IMG/VR virus record: IMGVR_UViG_3300017788_000129
Coordinates: 1 to 28,260 of that record
Strand: one strand, 5' to 3'
DNA length: 28,260 bases
Origin: a virus
Part shown: positions 894 through 10,071 of the stretch, one piece after another
How the letters are laid out: the number at the start of each line of letters is the position of its first letter
Numbering within the stretch: position 1 is the first letter of the stretch
Notes under the pieces: generated by a model
What the model saw: the letters and a program-made list of their open reading frames with translations, nothing else
What the model was told of the DNA's origin: nothing
Database searches by the model: none
Translations under genes and position numbers: made by a program

Positions 894-1229
894 TTATGAT
901 ACTCTAGGAGTGACAGTTAATATTCCTTCAACTATTCTTGTTACCACGTTTGTAGGACTTGTCACTTTGACATCATAGACATATCTACCAGACTTTATAT
1001 TTACCGATGAGTCTGATGTTAGGGAAATAGTTACATTTCCGTTTCCGGCATCGTTGATTGTAGATGTAAAAACTGCAGTATTATTTGCCGAATAGTACGA
1101 CTTTTTTATGTTTGCATTTATTGTGTAGTTTGAAACATTGATTGGTAGATTGGTTGTATCTTCAGTTAGAGTCAAAATTGTACTAAAAGTAGACCCCTGA
1201 TCCACTATGAGTTCCGCGTAAGATGCCAT
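894..1229 (-). CDS. Small beta-rich virion protein (BppU/Ig-like N-domain type)
   Basis: The 111-residue protein has alternating hydrophobic strands. It opens with an AELIVDQGSTFSTILTL stretch and later has a SGRYVYDVKV stretch. This arrangement resembles small baseplate or upper-baseplate (BppU N-terminal-like) domains found in many tailed phages. The resemblance is recalled, not computed. An AGGT element precedes the ATG at 1229-1227, and a short leader of about 54 bases separates it from the upstream PP-loop gene. It probably belongs to the virion and sits with the downstream fibre gene. Specific binding partners are unknown. Confidence 0.6.
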   Translation of the reverse strand: MASYAELIVDQGSTFSTILTLTEDTTNLPINVSNYTINANIKKSYYSANNTAVFTSTINDAGNGNVTISLTSDSSVNIKSGRYVYDVKVTSPTNVVTRIVEGILTVTPRVS

Positions 1230-1283: not shown

Positions 1284-2459
1284 TTACATCAAACCAACAA
1301 AATATTCCTTTTCAACAGTAATTAGAGCATCGGGTCTATATCTATTTTGTACATATAAGTCACAATTCTTTATGACATGAGCAAGACCTTTTTTCCACAA
1401 AGAATACTCTATGCTATTTCTATGGTTTTCTATGAACCAGTAATCAAACTCTGAATACCAATCAAACGTTGCTTTATTGGCCTGAAACCACGAACTATTC
1501 CACGTTGTATACAATAAAGGTCGTATGATTCTCTCAGATGGTATTCTTCCCATTTCAAGAGGCTTAGGCATCTTGTGAAAAAAATATTGAAACTTTGTAT
1601 TTACCTTCAACCAATTCATGATAACATGTGCTTGTTTGCATATCATGTCACATGCATCAGGTGACCAATAAAAGTATTCAATAGTTGTATTTGTATAATC
1701 TTTAGCATATTCACCAATTGGTGTTATATTTGCCATTCTATCGCTAAAATACATACAGACTTTTTTCGTGTTTTCAAATATACGAATCTTTGGTTTATCT
1801 ACGCCAAGGACTATTGCTGTTTTTTTACTATGATCGAGTTGCTTCTTGAAATCTGGAAATTGTAGATAATTGTACCTTGATGCATCTATTGGATTCAATT
1901 CTTCTCTTACTTGAAAAATCCAACTTTCATCATTGTGCCTTGCAAATGCGTTGAACACAGAATCGCTTACATCAAATATTCTTATCTTTGTTTGCGGAGA
2001 AAGATTTGTTATTTCTTTTAGTCTTGGAATTGTTTGAAGAGCATATTCTGATGAATATGCATACTTTGCTGACTTTTCTGATGGATCAATTATAGCATAA
2101 TCATTCATGGCTTTGTTCATATGCGTGACTATGATTTCATCGACAAATAAATTTTGTCTTAGAAAAGCCATAAGCATGTTATGACTATCAGAACCACCAC
2201 TATAGCTAACAATCACATGATCATATTTTTCACGAATATCTCTTGCTCTGGCGTTGTATAATTCATCAAGAGTTTTTTCTGGCTCTTTTGTCCAATCATA
2301 TGCTTCAAATATTTCATCATTGAAATTCCACTGTAATAATCTCAAAGGATGAATACTTTGATTCATTTCTTTCAAGACTTTATTTGCCAAAATACACGCT
2401 TGTATCTTGGATTCAAACACAGTCGTACCTATAGTATAAAAACCCAACTTTTTGTTCAT
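1284..2459 (-). CDS. PP-loop (N-type) ATP pyrophosphatase-like enzyme
   Basis: Residues 84-94 contain an SYSGGSDSHN motif, the SGGxDS signature of PP-loop ATP pyrophosphatases. That superfamily includes QueC, asparagine synthetase, NAD synthetase, TilS and PAPS reductase-like enzymes. Such enzymes adenylate a carbonyl or amide substrate with release of pyrophosphate. The loop is preceded by a hydrophobic strand (HVIV) and followed by a helix, as expected. The remaining 300 residues are rich in Trp and Tyr and do not match a subfamily I can name. No glutaminase domain or zinc-binding cluster is evident. Neighbours are structural and adhesin genes, with no queuosine or deazaguanine gene nearby, so the substrate is unknown. 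No clear Shine-Dalgarno precedes the ATG. Confidence 0.75.
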   Translation of the reverse strand: MNKKLGFYTIGTTVFESKIQACILANKVLKEMNQSIHPLRLLQWNFNDEIFEAYDWTKEPEKTLDELYNARARDIREKYDHVIVSYSGGSDSHNMLMAFLRQNLFVDEIIVTHMNKAMNDYAIIDPSEKSAKYAYSSEYALQTIPRLKEITNLSPQTKIRIFDVSDSVFNAFARHNDESWIFQVREELNPIDASRYNYLQFPDFKKQLDHSKKTAIVLGVDKPKIRIFENTKKVCMYFSDRMANITPIGEYAKDYTNTTIEYFYWSPDACDMICKQAHVIMNWLKVNTKFQYFFHKMPKPLEMGRIPSERIIRPLLYTTWNSSWFQANKATFDWYSEFDYWFIENHRNSIEYSLWKKGLAHVIKNCDLYVQNRYRPDALITVEKEYFVGLM

Positions 2460-2473
2460 GACGAAAAAACTAA

Positions 2474-2914
2474 TTAGGTATTAGATGTGTTTGCCGTTAA
2501 AGAATCAATTATTTTTTGAATTTCGTTTTCAATATTTTCTTCTGTTGTTTTTTCTTCAACAACAACCGGCTTCACTGCTGCAAATTCTTTACCAACAAGC
2601 GAAGAAGCATTTGATAGAGAAGTATCTACGTTTGGATCCAAAATATCATGTTTCAATTTAAACCAATCATATGGAGCCGAATCATTGGCAATTTTCTGTA
2701 TTTCTTCTGCTGTTGGTGTAGTATCAGTTTTCCATATATTGATATGATAGTCGGTTTGGCATCTTTGTGGAGAGCCGTCTGATCTTCTTGCGATTGATCC
2801 GTCACTATTGAACGAAATTGACAAACTATCTTCCGTCAATACATCTGTGTAATATCTAACGATAATAGAGTGTTGATTAGGATCAATATCAATTATTCGA
2901 TATTTGACTTCCAT
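2474..2914 (-). CDS. Adhesin-locus protein X1 (146 aa), paralogue of X2
   Basis: I do not recognise the family by function. The protein is clearly paralogous to the product of 4547-4984. Both share a YYTD-LTED segment, a DGS-xxR-DGSP-RCQTDY core, an NIWKT motif and a DWFKLKHD-LD segment, then diverge in an acidic, Glu-rich tail. The ATG at 2914 follows GAGGAAAAAA, a strong ribosome binding site. A CATAAATA octamer lies 33 bases upstream. Both copies are associated with glycine-rich adhesin genes, which suggests a role in adhesin folding, attachment or virion incorporation. That role is inference. No catalytic motif or membrane segment is seen. Confidence 0.7.
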   Translation of the reverse strand: MEVKYRIIDIDPNQHSIIVRYYTDVLTEDSLSISFNSDGSIARRSDGSPQRCQTDYHINIWKTDTTPTAEEIQKIANDSAPYDWFKLKHDILDPNVDTSLSNASSLVGKEFAAVKPVVVEEKTTEENIENEIQKIIDSLTANTSNT

Positions 2915-2954: not shown

Positions 2955-2982
2955 TGAAAATAAACGTCATGTGGAGAATTTC

Positions 2983-3600
2983 ATGTACAAAGCTTTGTCC
3001 AATAGTCCTGAAGAAAGATCAAATATAACATATTCGTGGGCTTATTGGGATAACGGATTTAGTGAAGATGAAATAAGAAGAGTTGAAGAAATATGTTCTT
3101 TGAATAAAGTACAAAAAGCAACTATTGTTGGAACTCAAGATGAGCAAGAAGTTGAAAAAGTAAGAAAATCAAAAGTCCACTTTTATAAAAAAGACAAAAA
3201 TACAAATTGGATATTTGATAAATTCAATGCAATCATAACAGGTATAAATGAAAGTTACTATAACTATAATCTAAACGGATATCATGATTTTCAATATACT
3301 GAATATTATGCTAGTGAAGAAGGAAAGTATGACTGGCACATGGATATGTTGCATGGCCAAAGTAATCAAAATGGGACAAGAAAACTATCAGTTGTGATGT
3401 GCTTATCTGATCCAGAAAAAGATTTTGAAGGTGGTGATTTTGAAATAAATGTCGGTAATCAAAATGAACCACAAAAAATAGTTATGAAAAGAGGACGAAT
3501 CATATTTTTTCCATCATATATCATTCATAGAGTAAAACCCATAACTAAAGGTATTAGAAAATCAATTGTGATATGGGTAATTGGCCCGAAGTTTGTTTGA
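2983..3600 (+). CDS. 2-oxoglutarate/Fe(II) dioxygenase (PKHD/prolyl-hydroxylase-like)
   Basis: This is the only convincing plus-strand gene. I chose ATG at 2983, preceded by GGAG at 2973-2976, over the in-frame GTG at 2971 because the purine-rich element lies between them; this gives 205 residues. The double-stranded beta-helix iron site is visible: His119 and Asp121 in a WHMDM motif, His182 in IIHRV, and Arg192 in GIRKS for 2-oxoglutarate. The order HxD...H...R and the EGGDFEI segment fit the prolyl 4-hydroxylase/PKHD (PiuC-like) class. Such enzymes hydroxylate protein or small-molecule substrates using O2 and 2-oxoglutarate. Its stop codon directly abuts the stop of the convergent glycine-rich adhesin gene. 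Substrate is unknown; the adhesins are attractive candidates. Confidence 0.85.
   Translation: MYKALSNSPEERSNITYSWAYWDNGFSEDEIRRVEEICSLNKVQKATIVGTQDEQEVEKVRKSKVHFYKKDKNTNWIFDKFNAIITGINESYYNYNLNGYHDFQYTEYYASEEGKYDWHMDMLHGQSNQNGTRKLSVVMCLSDPEKDFEGGDFEINVGNQNEPQKIVMKRGRIIFFPSYIIHRVKPITKGIRKSIVIWVIGPKFV
3571..3600 (+). repeat. Left copy of imperfect 30-bp direct repeat flanking adhesin 1
   Basis: These are the last ten codons of the intact oxygenase (IWVIGPKFV and stop). They match 4508-4537 at 24 of 30 bases in the same orientation. The two copies bracket the adhesin gene at 3601-4509. Confidence 0.8.
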
Positions 3601-4509
3601 TTAATTACTTGTATTTCCGCTTAAAGTTCCTATAGCAATAAAAGTAATTAAATTATTACCTGCAATTGCAAATCCAGTATTTCCTACATTGCCTGTAGCA
3701 CCAGCAGCTCCTCCTGGTTTTGCACCGAGAGTTGCATTAAATGAATAACCACCACCGCCGTTAGCACCACCGAATCCAGCTTGTGCTGTATTCCCACCCG
3801 GTCCTCCTGCTCCAGCAGCAGGACTTCCACCAGACGATGCCGCGCCTCCGGCACCACGTAATGATGCTGTACCGTTTGCTCCAGCTGATCCTGCAGGAAC
3901 ATATAGTGAAACACCACCTGTGCCACCAGTTCCACCAGAAACTCCGGCGCCGCCACCACCGCCGCCACCTCCATAATAATTGTAGTATGGCACACCCTTG
4001 CTTGGAACATACAAATATCCTGTTGCGCCACCACCACCGCCGCCACCACCGCCCGATCCTCCGGGTCCGCCATTGCCACCTCTAATGATACCAAGATTAT
4101 TCAAATACATTCTTAAAACTTGACTACCTGTTTCAGCTTGAAATGCAACTGATCCGTTTGCACCACGAAGTCCAGTTCCGCCTGCTGAACCAGCAACACC
4201 GTCAACAGGTGAACCACTGTAACCAGAACCTCTACCACCAGCACCACCTGTTCCAGAAACACCTGTATTACCAACATTTCCGACTATGTTTGCTGAATTT
4301 CTTATGAAGAAATATGTTGAATTCGCCCATCCTGTACCAAGTCTTAATGCGGGACCATTGAAAACATTGCTTGATACATTTGCATCAATAAAACAAAATA
4401 AATTTACAGGGTATGTGGGTGTATTTGCACTTGCTCGCAAATTAACATTATTTGCAACTGTAGAAATTGTTATAACTTGATTTGGTCGTGTAACTATTGT
4501 TGTAAACAT
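3601..4509 (-). CDS. Glycine-rich adhesin 1 (302 aa)
   Basis: A conserved N-terminal segment of about 70 residues (IVTRP, then NLRASA, then an SGTGGAGG run) leads into a long glycine-rich body. The body has two poly-glycine blocks separated by a YYNYYGG segment. The C-terminus has a short conserved cap, NNLITFIAIGT. This layout recalls the polyglycine-sandwich adhesins of T-even phages (gp38 type), which sit at fibre tips and bind the host surface. Overall relationship to gp38 is by analogy, not proven homology. It is paralogous to 5004-5924. No good Shine-Dalgarno precedes the ATG: the leader is occupied by a remnant of an oxygenase gene on the other strand. Confidence 0.75.
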   Translation of the reverse strand: MFTTIVTRPNQVITISTVANNVNLRASANTPTYPVNLFCFIDANVSSNVFNGPALRLGTGWANSTYFFIRNSANIVGNVGNTGVSGTGGAGGRGSGYSGSPVDGVAGSAGGTGLRGANGSVAFQAETGSQVLRMYLNNLGIIRGGNGGPGGSGGGGGGGGGATGYLYVPSKGVPYYNYYGGGGGGGGAGVSGGTGGTGGVSLYVPAGSAGANGTASLRGAGGAASSGGSPAAGAGGPGGNTAQAGFGGANGGGGYSFNATLGAKPGGAAGATGNVGNTGFAIAGNNLITFIAIGTLSGNTSN

Positions 4510-4537
4510 ATGGGGTATTGGTCCAAAATTTGTTTAA
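4508..4537 (+). pseudogene. Ten-codon C-terminal remnant of a second 2OG-Fe(II) oxygenase
   Basis: The plus strand reads IWGIGPKFV followed by TAA. The intact oxygenase ends IWVIGPKFV and TGA. Eight of nine residues match, and four of the six base differences are synonymous or stop-to-stop. This pattern indicates a former coding sequence rather than chance. It overlaps the adhesin 1 start codon by two bases and fills its leader. No further oxygenase sequence is recognisable to the left. Confidence 0.75.
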
Positions 4538-4546
4538 AAATTAAAA

Positions 4547-4984
4547 TTATTTCTTTGTTAATTCTTCCAATAACTCTTCTATTTCTTGGTCACTTAATGG
4601 TTTAGATTTTTCTATTTTTTCTTCTATTTTTTCTTCTATTTTTTCAGATTCAAATTCTTTACTAAGCATATCTTTAATACATTCTAAAGATGTATCTACT
4701 TTCTCATCCAATACGTCATGTTTTAATTTAAACCATTCATGTGGAAAACAATCATTAATATATTTTATAATTTCATTCTTAGTTGGTGGTGGATTTGTTT
4801 TCCAAATATTAAGATTATAATCTGTTTGACATCTAATAGGTGAACCATCTTTGTTTCTTTCAATTGATCCATCTAAATTAAAAGATGTTGCCAAATTATC
4901 TTCCGTTAAAAAATCAGTATAGTATCTAACAACGATTGAATGTTGTGACAAATCAAAGCTTAAAATTTTAAATTTAAAATTCAT
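4547..4984 (-). CDS. Adhesin-locus protein X2 (145 aa), paralogue of X1
   Basis: The first 110 residues align throughout with X1, including the RCQTDY, NIWKT and EWFKLKHD-LDEKVDTSL segments. The two tails differ: X2 has a lysine/glutamate tail with an EKIE tetrapeptide repeat. The ATG at 4984 follows AAGGT and an A-tract, a reasonable ribosome binding site. It is more AT-rich than X1, so the two copies have evolved separately for some time. It lies immediately downstream of adhesin 2, so an adhesin-linked job such as chaperone or connector is plausible. Function is not known. Confidence 0.7.
   Translation of the reverse strand: MNFKFKILSFDLSQHSIVVRYYTDFLTEDNLATSFNLDGSIERNKDGSPIRCQTDYNLNIWKTNPPPTKNEIIKYINDCFPHEWFKLKHDVLDEKVDTSLECIKDMLSKEFESEKIEEKIEEKIEKSKPLSDQEIEELLEELTKK
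4609..4644 (-). repeat. 12-nt tandem repeat (three units) encoding EKIE
   Basis: Three consecutive 12-bp units built on cttctatttttt (plus strand) encode repeated Glu-Lys-Ile-Glu in the acidic tail of X2. Units two and three are identical. Length change here would keep the reading frame. Confidence 0.85.
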
Positions 4985-5003: not shown

Positions 5004-5924
5004 TCAGGACACAGGCCCGTTTCTAGTGCCTAATGATATATGTGTAATATTTGAGTTTCCTGTTACAGAATTTCCCTGAGATCCTGAGGGTCCTGTTGGT
5101 CCGACAGGTCCACCAGATCTAAATCCATACGTGCCCGATCCATATGCATTTGAAATGCCAGGATTTCCTGCGCTACCTAAATTACCTCCAGCACCCCCCG
5201 TTGTTGCTGTAACAGCAGCCCCGCCACCACCAGCACCACCGGCACCGCCAGTTGTTGACCCAGAAGTTGTAGTTGTTCCAGCACTTCCATTTGTACCACC
5301 TGGACCTGTACCAGTACCACCAGCACCACCTGAAGCTCCAGGAGTTCCTGCACCAGCACCACCACCACCGCCACCAAAGAAACTAGAATAACCAGGAACA
5401 TATGGTGCTGGTGCAACATCAGTTCTACCTGCAGCCCCACCACCGCCGCCGCCACCGCCACCTGTTCCACCGGAGCCTGCAGAGCCACCCGTAAATGTTC
5501 CAGATCCATTATCAAGAACTATACGAATATTTGATACAGTATCCGCAGTAAAAGAAGTTCCTCCTGTCCCACCAGTTCCACCTGTACCACCTTGATTACC
5601 TTGAGTGCCATCATTAGGTCCGCCATTTCCCTTACCACCAGCACCGCCTGAGCCGGGTGTTCCTGTAGCTCCTGCCACTCCTGTAATAGTGCTAGAATTT
5701 TTTATGTAAATGTCTGTGCCGCCATGCCAACCAGAACCGGTTCTATATGCAGGAACACTTGCAGAGGAACCTGTTACCGCGGCAGTAACAAATGCATAAA
5801 CATTAATGGGAAAGTTTGCATTAGGAACACCAATAGTAGATCCAACAGAAGATCTTAAATTATAATTACTTGTTGTTGATGTTACATTTACTATTGCGTA
5901 TGGGCGAGATATTATTGCGAGCAT
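5004..5924 (-). CDS. Glycine-rich adhesin 2 (306 aa) with collagen-like triplets
   Basis: The domain layout matches adhesin 1: an IISRPYAIVNV start, an NLRSSVG segment, two poly-glycine blocks around an aromatic SSFFGGG break, and a conserved C-terminal cap with NITHISLGT. Near the C-terminus there is a GPVGPTGPSG run of collagen-type Gly-X-Y triplets that adhesin 1 lacks. Prolines are also scattered in the glycine blocks. By analogy to polyglycine gp38-type tips, it probably forms the host-contacting end of a fibre. It is followed within 20 bases by X2 and preceded within 15 by a fibre-like protein. Confidence 0.75.
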   Translation of the reverse strand: MLAIISRPYAIVNVTSTTSNYNLRSSVGSTIGVPNANFPINVYAFVTAAVTGSSASVPAYRTGSGWHGGTDIYIKNSSTITGVAGATGTPGSGGAGGKGNGGPNDGTQGNQGGTGGTGGTGGTSFTADTVSNIRIVLDNGSGTFTGGSAGSGGTGGGGGGGGGAAGRTDVAPAPYVPGYSSFFGGGGGGAGAGTPGASGGAGGTGTGPGGTNGSAGTTTTSGSTTGGAGGAGGGGAAVTATTGGAGGNLGSAGNPGISNAYGSGTYGFRSGGPVGPTGPSGSQGNSVTGNSNITHISLGTRNGPVS

Positions 5925-5939
5925 GATGTTTGCTTCAAA

Positions 5940-6611
5940 TTACGATCTAACATCCGGTATCATTGCACCAAACATATTGGTACCATCAGAAACAAATGAA
6001 AATAAATCTCTCCTATTTGCACCACTAGTTAAAGTTGGATTAACGTTAGCGGTAAATTTATATTGATTTGAAAAAGTTAGTGTTCTACCACCAGTGCCAT
6101 CCTGTATTACATGGAGAATATATGTACCAACTCTTAAACTACTTGCATTTGCAAGCGTTCTATTTCCAGCAAGAGTTACGGTTGCTATTTGACCAAGAGA
6201 AGTGTCCCAAGAAATTGTTGAGGCGTCAGTTAACGTTTGAGATAATATATTTGCGGCGGCAATATCTATTGTTCCACCAGTTGCTCTTAAATTTTGACTA
6301 ACATTTATTGTTGGAACAACAAGTGTTCCTATCATTGTGTCGCCAGTCTTTAATAAACTATTGCTGGCAGCACTGTTTGCTACATTAGCTCTATCAAACG
6401 CGGAATTAGCTGTATCAAACGCGGAAGAAAGAGTAGAAACAACATTTAGTGAACCAAAAAATAAATTATTTGCAGTAACAATATTTGCAGTAACACTACG
6501 ATAAGTTTGTAGACCATCACCAAGCAAATCGTTAATTACAACAATAAGTTGATTTGTAGTTACTCTCCATTCATCAAACGTATTCGTTAGTGATACATTA
6601 CTGATGGCCAT
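5940..6611 (-). CDS. Fibre-like virion protein (223 aa), paralogue of the 326-aa protein
   Basis: Residues 1-45 (SLTNTFDEWR, NDLLGDGL, TYRSVTAN) match the N-terminus of the product of 9091-10071, and so does the C-terminal half (LAGNRTLANAS, IQDGTGGRTLTFS). The two differ in the middle: this protein has only AFDTANSAFDRAN-type repeats and no cupredoxin domain. The shared N-terminus probably docks to the same virion component. The ATG at 6611 follows GGAG at about ten bases. It lies between the 788-residue fibre and adhesin 2, so it may be a connector or adapter for the adhesin. That role is inference. Confidence 0.7.
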   Translation of the reverse strand: MAISNVSLTNTFDEWRVTTNQLIVVINDLLGDGLQTYRSVTANIVTANNLFFGSLNVVSTLSSAFDTANSAFDRANVANSAASNSLLKTGDTMIGTLVVPTINVSQNLRATGGTIDIAAANILSQTLTDASTISWDTSLGQIATVTLAGNRTLANASSLRVGTYILHVIQDGTGGRTLTFSNQYKFTANVNPTLTSGANRRDLFSFVSDGTNMFGAMIPDVRS

Positions 6612-6711: not shown

Positions 6712-9078
6712 TTATCTGGCTCTCGCGTACTTAAATGGGGTTTCGGCATATGCAGCAAACAGATAGCTAATGCCACTATTGTTTACCGAGTAGCCGGTTG
6801 GAGCACGTAGCTTAAAGCCGTTTGACAAAAGATCGAAGCCGTAGACGTTCGAAGTTGTATCGGCGTTCGCAAGATCCGAGAAAACAAAATTGATAATCTC
6901 GTTGTCCCTGTTCGATGCGTTTGCCATTACCCAGCTAGTCGCTAAGTTGCGCGCCTTGATCATCAAGAACTTGGGCCTAAACCCGCACCAAACGAACGGC
7001 CCGTCCGTTGAGGCATTACCGGTGTAGCTGCCAATCTTGCTGAAGCCATCGACCTCGGACCAGAGGTAGGCGACAATGCTGCATGTGTTTTGATTGACAA
7101 AGGAATCAGTTCCAACCGTAAAGACAGATGATGTTGGAATAGTGTTGTTAAAAAATAATCCGTAAGCACCTTCTACCGCTGCCGATGACATATACATGTA
7201 GTAGTTGGCTGGAGTTGTTCCTCCGTTGAGCATGGAATGGTAAAATACCGGAACCGAAGCCGGAGACGCACTGGTGTCAACGTTTTTTATGATCATCATA
7301 TTGGGAACAACTCCAAGAGAATGCGCGATTGTTCGATTGGTTGCATTTCCTGTGTAAGTTACGATGTCGAAGCCCGGCGTCGCGCCTTTCTTCCACGCCC
7401 AATCGACGTAAGTATTCGTGTTTATGTTGACGCCACGCGAAGACGCATCGCTGCCCAGCGAATAACCGTTGGAGTCGAAAGCCGTCAGCGAGTTGGCGTC
7501 GGTGTATTGTGAACCGCTAGCGTTAGTGTTAAATCCCTTTTGCACCCCACGCGAACTATCGAAGAGGTTGTGTGATGTTGCATTGCTGCGCGACTTGATC
7601 CACACGAGATCCGGTTGGAACCCGAGAGAGGACACCGATGCCGTTGCGCCCGTTCCGGTCCGCTGCGTGGCATCAAAAAAGAGTGAACTCTTCTTGATGG
7701 AGGGCGTCGTGAGGTTTTTTGTGTTCAGCGCCTTAAAGCCGGTGGGCGGCGTGTAGGAGAATGGACGCTGGCCGAAGTTCATACTGACTCCACCGCTTGC
7801 TGGATTAGGTAGGTTTACACCAGCAAACAATCCGCTCGGTATTGATGAAAATCTAGGGTCTGTATTTGTTGCGGGGTTTGCAGTTCCGCTCGTGTTATAC
7901 CAAGTGCCATTTCTTCCGACCCACATTGTTCCATTGTCAGAATCAACAGCAAACATTAGCACATTGCCTGATGTTGGATTTGTATTTGTTCCCCATGCGG
8001 CAAATGCAGCATTGTTTGATTGAAATTGAATGTATGTATATGTAGTTCCCCAAGCGACTTGATATTCATTTCCTGTGCCTGAAATAGAACCGCTATTTGG
8101 TCTGTTTGCAGAATAAATGCCAGCTTGATAAAGAATGGGAGTATTGTTGAGGGTTAATTCCCAATACCATTTGCCGCTGTTAGGCACAGGCATTGTGGCG
8201 CGAGCAAGCCAGTAATCTGCAATGCTGGTGGGGATAACCGTGAGATTTCCTTCGCTGAACGCAAGGTTTGTGTTTTTGTCCAGCGGGTTCATCACCGCAT
8301 AGTTCAGCGTCGGCGTGTCGAGCATCTGATCGAACGTCGTGCCGCTCGTCACCGAGATGCCGCTTGGCGTCCAGTTATTGGCGTTGCCAGAGCTGTCTTT
8401 TCCAATGGCGGCTGCGGTGGCGGCACTGGCGTCTTTGAATTCCAAAAGAAAACCGTTTGTGCCGTAGGTGCCCGCGTAGGCTTTCGGAACCCACACGCCA
8501 GTCGTTGCGTCGGTCCGGCCGAAACTGGACGGCGCAAGTTGCTGACCGTCGATCATGATCACGTTAGAGAGATTGCCATCGAAAAGTTGGCTGACACCAC
8601 TGCCGATGGTGCCTATGCGCTGGACGACGTTATTGTTCGCTTGCGACGAGTAGTTCAGTGAATAGTTGGTGTTTGTACCTGTAAAGGACGTGATTTCAAT
8701 CCCGTTGACGTAAAGGCGATTTCGCAGTGAAGCAGTGCTTTGCGTGGTGTCGACAGCCACAACGACATGGTACCAAGCACTTGGATCGCGAAATTTTGCC
8801 GCGCTGTACTTTTGAGCTACCGCATCGTCATACAGAAAAAAGCTATCGTCAGACAGAAAGCCAATCTGAAAGTTCGATCCAGAACCCCCAAAGTACAAAG
8901 AGTTCTGCACCCCGGGTTGGGCGCGCTTCACCCATGCTGAATAGGTGAAGATTTGACGATTACCCGCAGACCCCGGCGTGCGCGCCAGATACGCGCTGTT
9001 GCTGGCGCGGAAGCGCAGCGAGTTGGAAATAAGATATTCTGTTTTACTTAAAAGTAAATGATTAACATTATCCGACAT
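6712..9078 (-). CDS. Mosaic tail fibre: LamG-like, SPRY-like and C-terminal DUF domains (788 aa)
   Basis: Residues 1-17 form an AT-rich N-terminal stub. Residues about 18-193 resemble a concanavalin A/LamG-type fold (SAWVKRAQPG, WYHVVVAVDTT, RLYVNGIEI, LSNVIMIDGQ). Residues about 288-443 resemble a SPRY domain (GKWYWELTL, QAGIYSANR, GTMWVGRNGTWYN, GLFAGVNL). Residues 450-788 contain repeated FQPDLVWIKSRS and VDWAWKKG-type motifs. I recall these from a phage tail domain of unknown function (DUF7483-like). Such proteins are candidate receptor-binding fibres. Base composition shifts sharply: 73% GC over 8971-9026 against 21% over 9027-9078, and 35% in a sampled SPRY line. Acquisition of most of the gene from a GC-rich source is likely. 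Confidence 0.8.
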   Translation of the reverse strand: MSDNVNHLLLSKTEYLISNSLRFRASNSAYLARTPGSAGNRQIFTYSAWVKRAQPGVQNSLYFGGSGSNFQIGFLSDDSFFLYDDAVAQKYSAAKFRDPSAWYHVVVAVDTTQSTASLRNRLYVNGIEITSFTGTNTNYSLNYSSQANNNVVQRIGTIGSGVSQLFDGNLSNVIMIDGQQLAPSSFGRTDATTGVWVPKAYAGTYGTNGFLLEFKDASAATAAAIGKDSSGNANNWTPSGISVTSGTTFDQMLDTPTLNYAVMNPLDKNTNLAFSEGNLTVIPTSIADYWLARATMPVPNSGKWYWELTLNNTPILYQAGIYSANRPNSGSISGTGNEYQVAWGTTYTYIQFQSNNAAFAAWGTNTNPTSGNVLMFAVDSDNGTMWVGRNGTWYNTSGTANPATNTDPRFSSIPSGLFAGVNLPNPASGGVSMNFGQRPFSYTPPTGFKALNTKNLTTPSIKKSSLFFDATQRTGTGATASVSSLGFQPDLVWIKSRSNATSHNLFDSSRGVQKGFNTNASGSQYTDANSLTAFDSNGYSLGSDASSRGVNINTNTYVDWAWKKGATPGFDIVTYTGNATNRTIAHSLGVVPNMMIIKNVDTSASPASVPVFYHSMLNGGTTPANYYMYMSSAAVEGAYGLFFNNTIPTSSVFTVGTDSFVNQNTCSIVAYLWSEVDGFSKIGSYTGNASTDGPFVWCGFRPKFLMIKARNLATSWVMANASNRDNEIINFVFSDLANADTTSNVYGFDLLSNGFKLRAPTGYSVNNSGISYLFAAYAETPFKYARAR

Positions 9079-9090
9079 TATAATATAATC

Positions 9091-10071
9091 TCAAGTATCA
9101 TTACTATTACCAACGTTTAATAAGGCATTGCACACATAAGAATTTGCAGTTCTTACTGAATATACAATTGCATCAACAGCATTTGCAGTTGTTGTTAAAG
9201 TTGGAGCAGAATTATCAACAAACTTATATGCCAAACCAAATGATACTGTTCTACTACCTGTGCCATCTTGAATAATGTATATTACACCAGACTGACCTAC
9301 TGTTGTATTTGTTGCATTGGCCAATGTACGATTACCACCAAGTGTTACTTTAAAATTATTGTTTGATGAAAAATCTGGTGTAATAGTTGCCGCATCAGTT
9401 AATGTAGTTATTAGTCCTGACGATTTTCCGCCTGGGTGTCTTATTTTTATAGATCCAACCATTCCACTATGAACAGAGCATTGATAAACATAGTTGTTAC
9501 TAGATAGTTCAAATGGAACTTTCCAATATAGTGTACCAGTCACTTGACCTTGAGCTGCTGAATTTGTGGATACAGTTCCATTTGTTGCAACATGAGTTAG
9601 ACCTGTGTTATAATTTGAACCACCGCTTGATTGACGAATCATAAATGGATGTCCAGTAACATTTAAATTAAATGCTATCGTTTCACCTGAGGAAATAAAA
9701 ATTTCAGGATTATTACCCAAATATTGATCTATTAAATATGCAGAGGAACCACTATTCGTTACGCTTAGACGAGTAACGGAAGGTAAGTAAACAGAATTAG
9801 CTTGAGTGAATGCTGCATTAGCTTGATCAAATGCAGCTGTAACTGCGGCAGAACTTCCAGCCCCGTTAGCAGCATTAAATGCTGCAATAATTGTTGGTTC
9901 AACGTTCATTGTTGAAATAGTAACAACGTTTGCAGTAACAACGTTTGCAGTCAAGTTGCGATATGTTAAAAGACCATCACCAAGAATATCATTTGCAATA
10001 ACAGCAAGTTGATTTGTAACCAATCTCCATTGGTCAAAAGTGTTTGTTAATGCGACATTACTAACTGCCAT
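9091..10071 (-). CDS. Fibre-like virion protein with a cupredoxin domain (326 aa)
   Basis: Residues 1-45 and 222-326 are paralogous to the 223-residue protein at 5940-6611. Residues 76-94 hold AFDQAN-type repeats. Residues about 100-212 look like a cupredoxin (plastocyanin/amicyanin class): a GETIAFNL strand, His141 in GHPFMI, and a YQCSVHSGMVGSI loop with Cys198, His201 and Met204. The C-x2-H-x2-M spacing equals that of amicyanin, so all four type-1 copper ligands appear present. Cupredoxins usually transfer electrons; here the context suggests a structural or ligand-binding role on the virion. A GGAGAAAAAA site precedes the ATG, which overlaps the upstream stop (TAATG). Confidence 0.75.
   Translation of the reverse strand: MAVSNVALTNTFDQWRLVTNQLAVIANDILGDGLLTYRNLTANVVTANVVTISTMNVEPTIIAAFNAANGAGSSAAVTAAFDQANAAFTQANSVYLPSVTRLSVTNSGSSAYLIDQYLGNNPEIFISSGETIAFNLNVTGHPFMIRQSSGGSNYNTGLTHVATNGTVSTNSAAQGQVTGTLYWKVPFELSSNNYVYQCSVHSGMVGSIKIRHPGGKSSGLITTLTDAATITPDFSSNNNFKVTLGGNRTLANATNTTVGQSGVIYIIQDGTGSRTVSFGLAYKFVDNSAPTLTTTANAVDAIVYSVRTANSYVCNALLNVGNSNDT

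Follow-up and report, generated by a model that had tools for sequence, protein, structure and literature searches.

Why does an adhesin gene of an uncultured phage lie exactly between two similar copies of an oxygenase gene end? The window analysed here, a stretch of 28,260 nucleotides (IMG/VR record IMGVR_UViG_3300017788_000129), is a fragment of a T4-type phage with a gp8-like baseplate gene that is approximately 27–39% identical, among the matches listed, to its counterparts in cyanophages and in Pelagibacter, Methylophilales, and Ochrobactrum phages. Read from its fibre end, the minus strand carries T5940, ADH2, X2, and ADH1; next comes the plus-strand oxygenase OX_A and, beyond it, X1, the asnB-like gene, and p894 (Table 1). 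An earlier note on this DNA had offered two explanations for the repeated oxygenase end: a swappable cassette holding the adhesin, with direct repeats at its borders, or a scar left by the loss of a second oxygenase gene.

Table 1. Features of the adhesin locus in the window, with the evidence for each assignment
Feature	Position	Strand	Evidence
p894, small tail-associated protein flanking the variable block on the left; window copy of B type	894..1229	-	phrog_1084, phrog_3304
asnB-like gene, 391 aa, part of the A block	1284..2459	-	95.7% nt to L006; missing between p894 and OX in L015
X1, uncharacterised but conserved adhesin-locus protein, copy of the A block	2474..2914	-	95.1% nt to L006
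OX_A, complete 2OG-Fe(II) oxygenase; contains left repeat copy 3571-3600	2971..3600	+	PF13640, phrog_61
ADH1, glycine-rich adhesin, probably of gp38 type; native to the A block	3601..4509	-	glycine content, Foldseek
Joint: ADH1 start codon (CAT on +), sharing AT (4508-4509) with the oxygenase stump	4507..4509	.	L005 alignments to L006 and L015
Right repeat copy: probable B-type oxygenase 3' stump, 10 codons including stop	4508..4537	+	syntenic with L015 OX end 1109-1138
X2, X1 paralogue, first gene of the B part	4547..4984	-	99.5% nt to L005, 76.6% to L015
ADH2, second glycine-rich adhesin, probably of gp38 type; native to the B block	5004..5924	-	93.9% nt to L015, 97.2% to L005
T5940, adhesin-adjacent tail-fibre gene, B type	5940..6611	-	98.1% nt to L015, 82.9% to L006; tail fiber PHROGs 9017, 4549

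An oxygenase gene end without a gene body

The last ten codons of OX_A (3571-3600, ATATGGGTAATTGGCCCGAAGTTTGTTTGA, translated IWVIGPKFV*) recur at 4508-4537 (ATATGGGGTATTGGTCCAAAATTTGTTTAA, IWGIGPKFV*) with strand and reading frame preserved and 24 of 30 bases matching. When the window was simulated 300 times with a first-order Markov model and both strands were searched, the best 30-mer match was usually 19 and never exceeded 22, and the runner-up site for the oxygenase-end 30-mer within the window itself reaches only 20 of 30 (minus strand), which rules out chance as the source of the repeat. ADH1 sits between the two copies as the earlier note described, with the qualification that two bases of its start codon are shared with the right copy.

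Four of the six differences between the copies are silent (in the Gly, Pro, Lys, and stop codons) and the other two fall in a single codon, changing Val to Gly. This predominance of silent changes indicates that the right copy diverged while still coding, in line with its earlier interpretation as a former oxygenase end. At the position of the Gly codon, nearly all intact relatives have Val or Ile and none has Gly, which fits drift after coding was lost; the right copy has thus probably drifted slightly since its coding phase. It is identical in the window and in two relatives (L005 and L007), and only two contigs other than the window carry it in IMG/VR. A degenerate-pattern search of IMG/VR for an intact oxygenase ending in IWGIGPKFV* found none, its sole hits being the two contigs that share the stump. 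The fetched loci contain 25 distinct oxygenase ends, and all except this stump belong to a gene body.

Two parental arrangements and their joint

Relatives of the locus (denoted by L and a number) were gathered by searches with OX, X1, X2, ADH2, and the fibre gene, and they separate into arrangements that each account for one side of the window. Arrangement A reads asnB-X1-OX-ADH1-fibre and lacks X2, which in L006 is missing between ADH1 and the fibre gene; p894 lies on the outer side of asnB in L006 and L026, and the core order recurs with more divergent genes in L030, L009, L010, and L041 (the last ending after X1). In A-type loci (L006, L026, L030, L041, L010, and others), the neighbours of ADH1 are OX on one side and the fibre gene on the other, and a second oxygenase end is absent. 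Arrangement B, found in L015, reads p894-OX-X2-ADH2-fibre and has neither asnB nor X1 nor ADH1; a more divergent fibre-adhesin-X-OX order occurs in L048 and L039. The L015 oxygenase is complete, convergent with X2, and shares 63% aa and 72.2% nt identity with OX_A of the window, which in turn is 92.4% identical (nt) to that of L006. The earlier note had suggested looking in relatives for a full second oxygenase before X2; in L015, which lacks ADH1, a complete oxygenase of a different kind stands at exactly this place. The right copy in the window aligns with the last 30 bases of this different gene and with the intergenic DNA beyond, so that the proposal of a scar left by a deleted second oxygenase is borne out. 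Both parental arrangements therefore exist separately (A in L006, L026, L030, L041, and L010; B in L015), and the joined order fibre-ADH2-X2-stump-ADH1-OX-X1-asnB is found in the window, L005, and L007.

The joint itself is most clearly seen in L005, where the match to L006 stops at 7533 and the match to L015 starts at 7532, overlapping by the two bases AT: the A relative aligns as far as the ADH1 start codon, and the B relative aligns from a point within the last 30 bases of its oxygenase. On the A side, L005 is nearly identical to L006 (nt identities of 100% for p894, 99.0% for asnB, 100% for X1, and 99.7% for OX, with 90% for ADH1), and on the B side to L015 (100% for T5940, 95.8% nt for ADH2, and 99.7% over the 2.7 kb beyond). 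Parental identity thus switches at the joint, placing the breakpoint within two bases. The same joint is carried by the window, by L005/L003 (contig 3300020214_000200), and by L007/L004 (contig 3300020220_001564), and its presence in the window despite only ~92% identity to L005 over 8.5 kb argues against a chimera of a single assembly. A stretch of 190 bases across the joint (4445-4634) is identical between the window and L005. Past the ADH1 start codon, L006 reads GTAAACAT-CCTAGAAATT and the window GTAAACAT-ATGGGGTATT, the latter being the oxygenase stump. From the stump's stop codon towards X2, the common GTTAATTC follows after 19 bases in the window and 17 in L015; this similar spacing, together with the common element, indicates that the stump occupies the place of the end of OX_B, the B-type oxygenase. 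By sequence, the 30-base scar is equidistant (six differences each to OX_A and to L015 OX_B), so that its assignment to OX_B rests on the synteny with X2.

We conclude, with a probability of roughly 0.87, that 4508-4537 represents the last ten codons of a displaced B-type oxygenase, left behind when an A block and a B block recombined at the ADH1 start codon. OX_B would once have been complete and convergent with X2. Recombination would then have fused the A block (asnB-X1-OX_A-ADH1) to the B block (OX_B-X2-ADH2-fibre), deleting OX_B except for its tail and yielding two tandem gp38-type adhesins, two X genes, and one working oxygenase. Because the break shows no homology beyond two bases, illegitimate joining is the best reading, presumably with selection for a product in which ADH1 remained intact from its start codon. 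Illegitimate exchange has been named among the routes to mosaicism in T4 relatives (PMC2993671), although phage-coded relaxed homologous recombination has been argued to be commoner (PMC3945230). L015 is a relative of the B donor rather than the donor, as its X2 is only 77% identical to that of the window; none of the contigs found has an intact IWGIGPKFV* oxygenase beside an X2 close to that of the window.

Between the window and L005, dS is 0.04 for X2 and 0.08 for ADH2, compared to 0.15–0.36 for X1, OX, and ADH1. The simplest reading is that the joint arose once and then spread by homologous exchange via the flanking genes, with the crossover in ADH1 or farther left. Further exchange on the left side may explain why p894 is of B type in the window (98.5% nt identity to L015, 82.4% to L006 and L005) and of A type in L005 (100% to L006).

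Novel joints between related genomes are known from the tail-fibre region of T4-related phages, where gene replacement and exchange of either the illegitimate or the relaxed homologous kind have been named as routes (Virol J 2010, PMC2993671), and the present case is a well-documented new example of this kind of event. It shares with that mosaicism the tail-region joint between related genomes, but here the source arrangements, the joint with its two-base overlap, and the stump can all be read in uncultured relatives, and both adhesins were kept. It thus provides an unusually clean record, down to the overlap and a ten-codon stump, of how one phage acquired two adhesins, and it shows that a truncated gene end within a tail locus can be taken as the mark of a joint.

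Alternative histories of the locus

The same end state would result from two steps: insertion of the whole A block next to an intact OX_B would first have produced a locus with a pair of complete oxygenases, and a later deletion would have spared only the tail of OX_B. The B-type p894 of the window implies that an A block with B DNA on both flanks once existed, which speaks for this route. However, none of the fetched loci has two complete oxygenases at this place, and the end of the deletion would have had to coincide with the ADH1 start codon, just as in the one-step joint. We therefore regard this history as unlikely, at about one chance in five.

Far less credible is the other explanation in the earlier note, by which ADH1 would be a cassette that can be excised or inserted and whose loss by recombination between the 30-bp copies would leave X1-OX-X2. 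The placement of ADH1 exactly between same-orientation copies invites this idea, and excision would indeed retain an intact oxygenase, but ADH1 is native to arrangement A, and A-type phages have it in the same place without the right copy. Among the relatives found, there was neither an empty site with one repeat copy nor an X1-OX-X2 order without ADH1. Nor is L015 an excision product, since it lacks asnB and X1 as well as ADH1 and its oxygenase is a different gene. The repeats are only 30 bp long at 80% identity, no recombinase was seen nearby, and the copies are homologues from two lineages rather than a target-site duplication, the right one being syntenic with a gene 72% identical (nt) to OX_A. 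Same-orientation repeats flanking an adhesin gene need not signal an excisable cassette, and the earlier reading is corrected in this respect.

Least probable of all is that the right copy is a functional element (a regulator, a terminator, or the ribosome-binding region of ADH1) conserved for its own sake, since its identity in the window, L005, and L007 belongs to the 190 identical bases that recent common descent of the stretch explains, and, for all its position just upstream of ADH1 in that gene's reading direction, it folds no better than shuffled RNA (z 0.37 and 0.28), contains no terminator-like or promoter-like site, and lies where the joint displaced the A-type upstream region (GTAGGATAATTTCTAGG-ATG in L006).

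Two adhesin genes in one phage

The joint left the phage with two adhesin genes, whose products consist of 28% (ADH1) and 30% (ADH2) glycine and can be aligned with each other. Both have long runs of glycine, those of ADH1 including GGGGGGGGG and GGGGGGGG. Sequence searches found no Pfam or NCBIfam families for ADH1, ADH2, X1, or X2, and no PDB sequence match for ADH2. In a Foldseek search with a low-confidence model of ADH1 (mean pLDDT 62.9), the top two PDB matches were gp38 of phage PP01 (9v85, probability 0.99, E 0.0058) and gp38 of phage S16 (6f45_D, probability 0.75), with TM-scores of 0.3–0.4. ADH1, a candidate for the polyglycine-sandwich fold of these adhesins (6F45, 9V85; PMC6851490), shares their glycine-run composition, and they are the best matches of its low-confidence model. 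In contrast, ADH1 and ADH2 are 302–306 aa long and occur as two tandem copies, and what links them to the fibre is their gene position beside the fibre gene.

The dN/dS of 0.18 between the window and L005 indicates that ADH1 evolves under constraint, and some of its divergence may predate the joint. Taken together with the glycine runs and the gp38 matches, this constraint suggests that both adhesins are probably made. As the joint replaced the A-type region upstream of ADH1, this gene may be less well translated. The two adhesins could provide two receptor-binding tips on one phage or serve as a stored alternative. More doubtful is the idea that the joint created a transferable two-adhesin module, in which stump-X2-ADH2 behind ADH1 would spread among related phages by homologous exchange via ADH1 and the fibre gene and provide them with two receptor-binding tips; the oxygenase found with every version may modify the glycine-rich adhesin.

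Variation is also seen within adhesin genes of the relatives. The L036 adhesin (8356-9261) combines ADH2-like ends with an ADH1-like middle, indicating exchange within the adhesin gene. In L010 (6634-8172), and likewise in L009, L011, and L013, an insertion of ~220 aa brings the adhesin to 513 aa in total; L012 and L014 are without it.

Genes accompanying the adhesins

OX_A contains a PF13640 domain (E 2.7e-17, residues 108–203) and belongs to phrog_61. Like the 2OG-Fe(II) oxygenases of marine T4-type phages (PHROG 61, PF13640), OX_A and OX_B, the latter as present in L015, are complete members with the family C-terminus; what differs is that here they are regular neighbours of adhesin genes, with the A-type stop codon 6–7 bases from that of the adhesin. 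Where the fibre gene was used to fetch loci, the oxygenase lies at this distance from ADH in close A-type contigs and within 4 kb in most others, and it is absent near the L036-type and L071 adhesins. Many related phages have such an oxygenase gene together with a glycine-rich adhesin; its orientation varies, as does the side of X on which it lies, and a role in adhesin modification is conceivable.

X1 and X2 are paralogues (51% aa identity) of a family that occurs beside adhesins. Fold searches with X2 against PDB and viral structures yielded no function, the best viral matches being unnamed Caudovirales proteins. In L023 (2538-2765), X2 is cut after ~73 codons and followed directly by an apparent T4-type neck gene, which looks like a second rearrangement within this gene. 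The asnB-like protein carries the SGGSDS motif of PP-loop ATPases and has weak profile matches only, with no Pfam family; relatives of its gene regularly adjoin these adhesin loci.

Other features of the fibre region

Tandem repeats of 63 bp (21 codons) lie in the distal fibre gene at the window edge (1-350), and L005 has more copies of related repeats upstream. Finally, a gene for a 788-aa protein with DUF7483 (PF24299) at 6712-9078 has a G+C content of ~50%, compared to ~34% in the rest of the phage except for the glycine-rich adhesins, and looks like a recently acquired gene of the fibre region.
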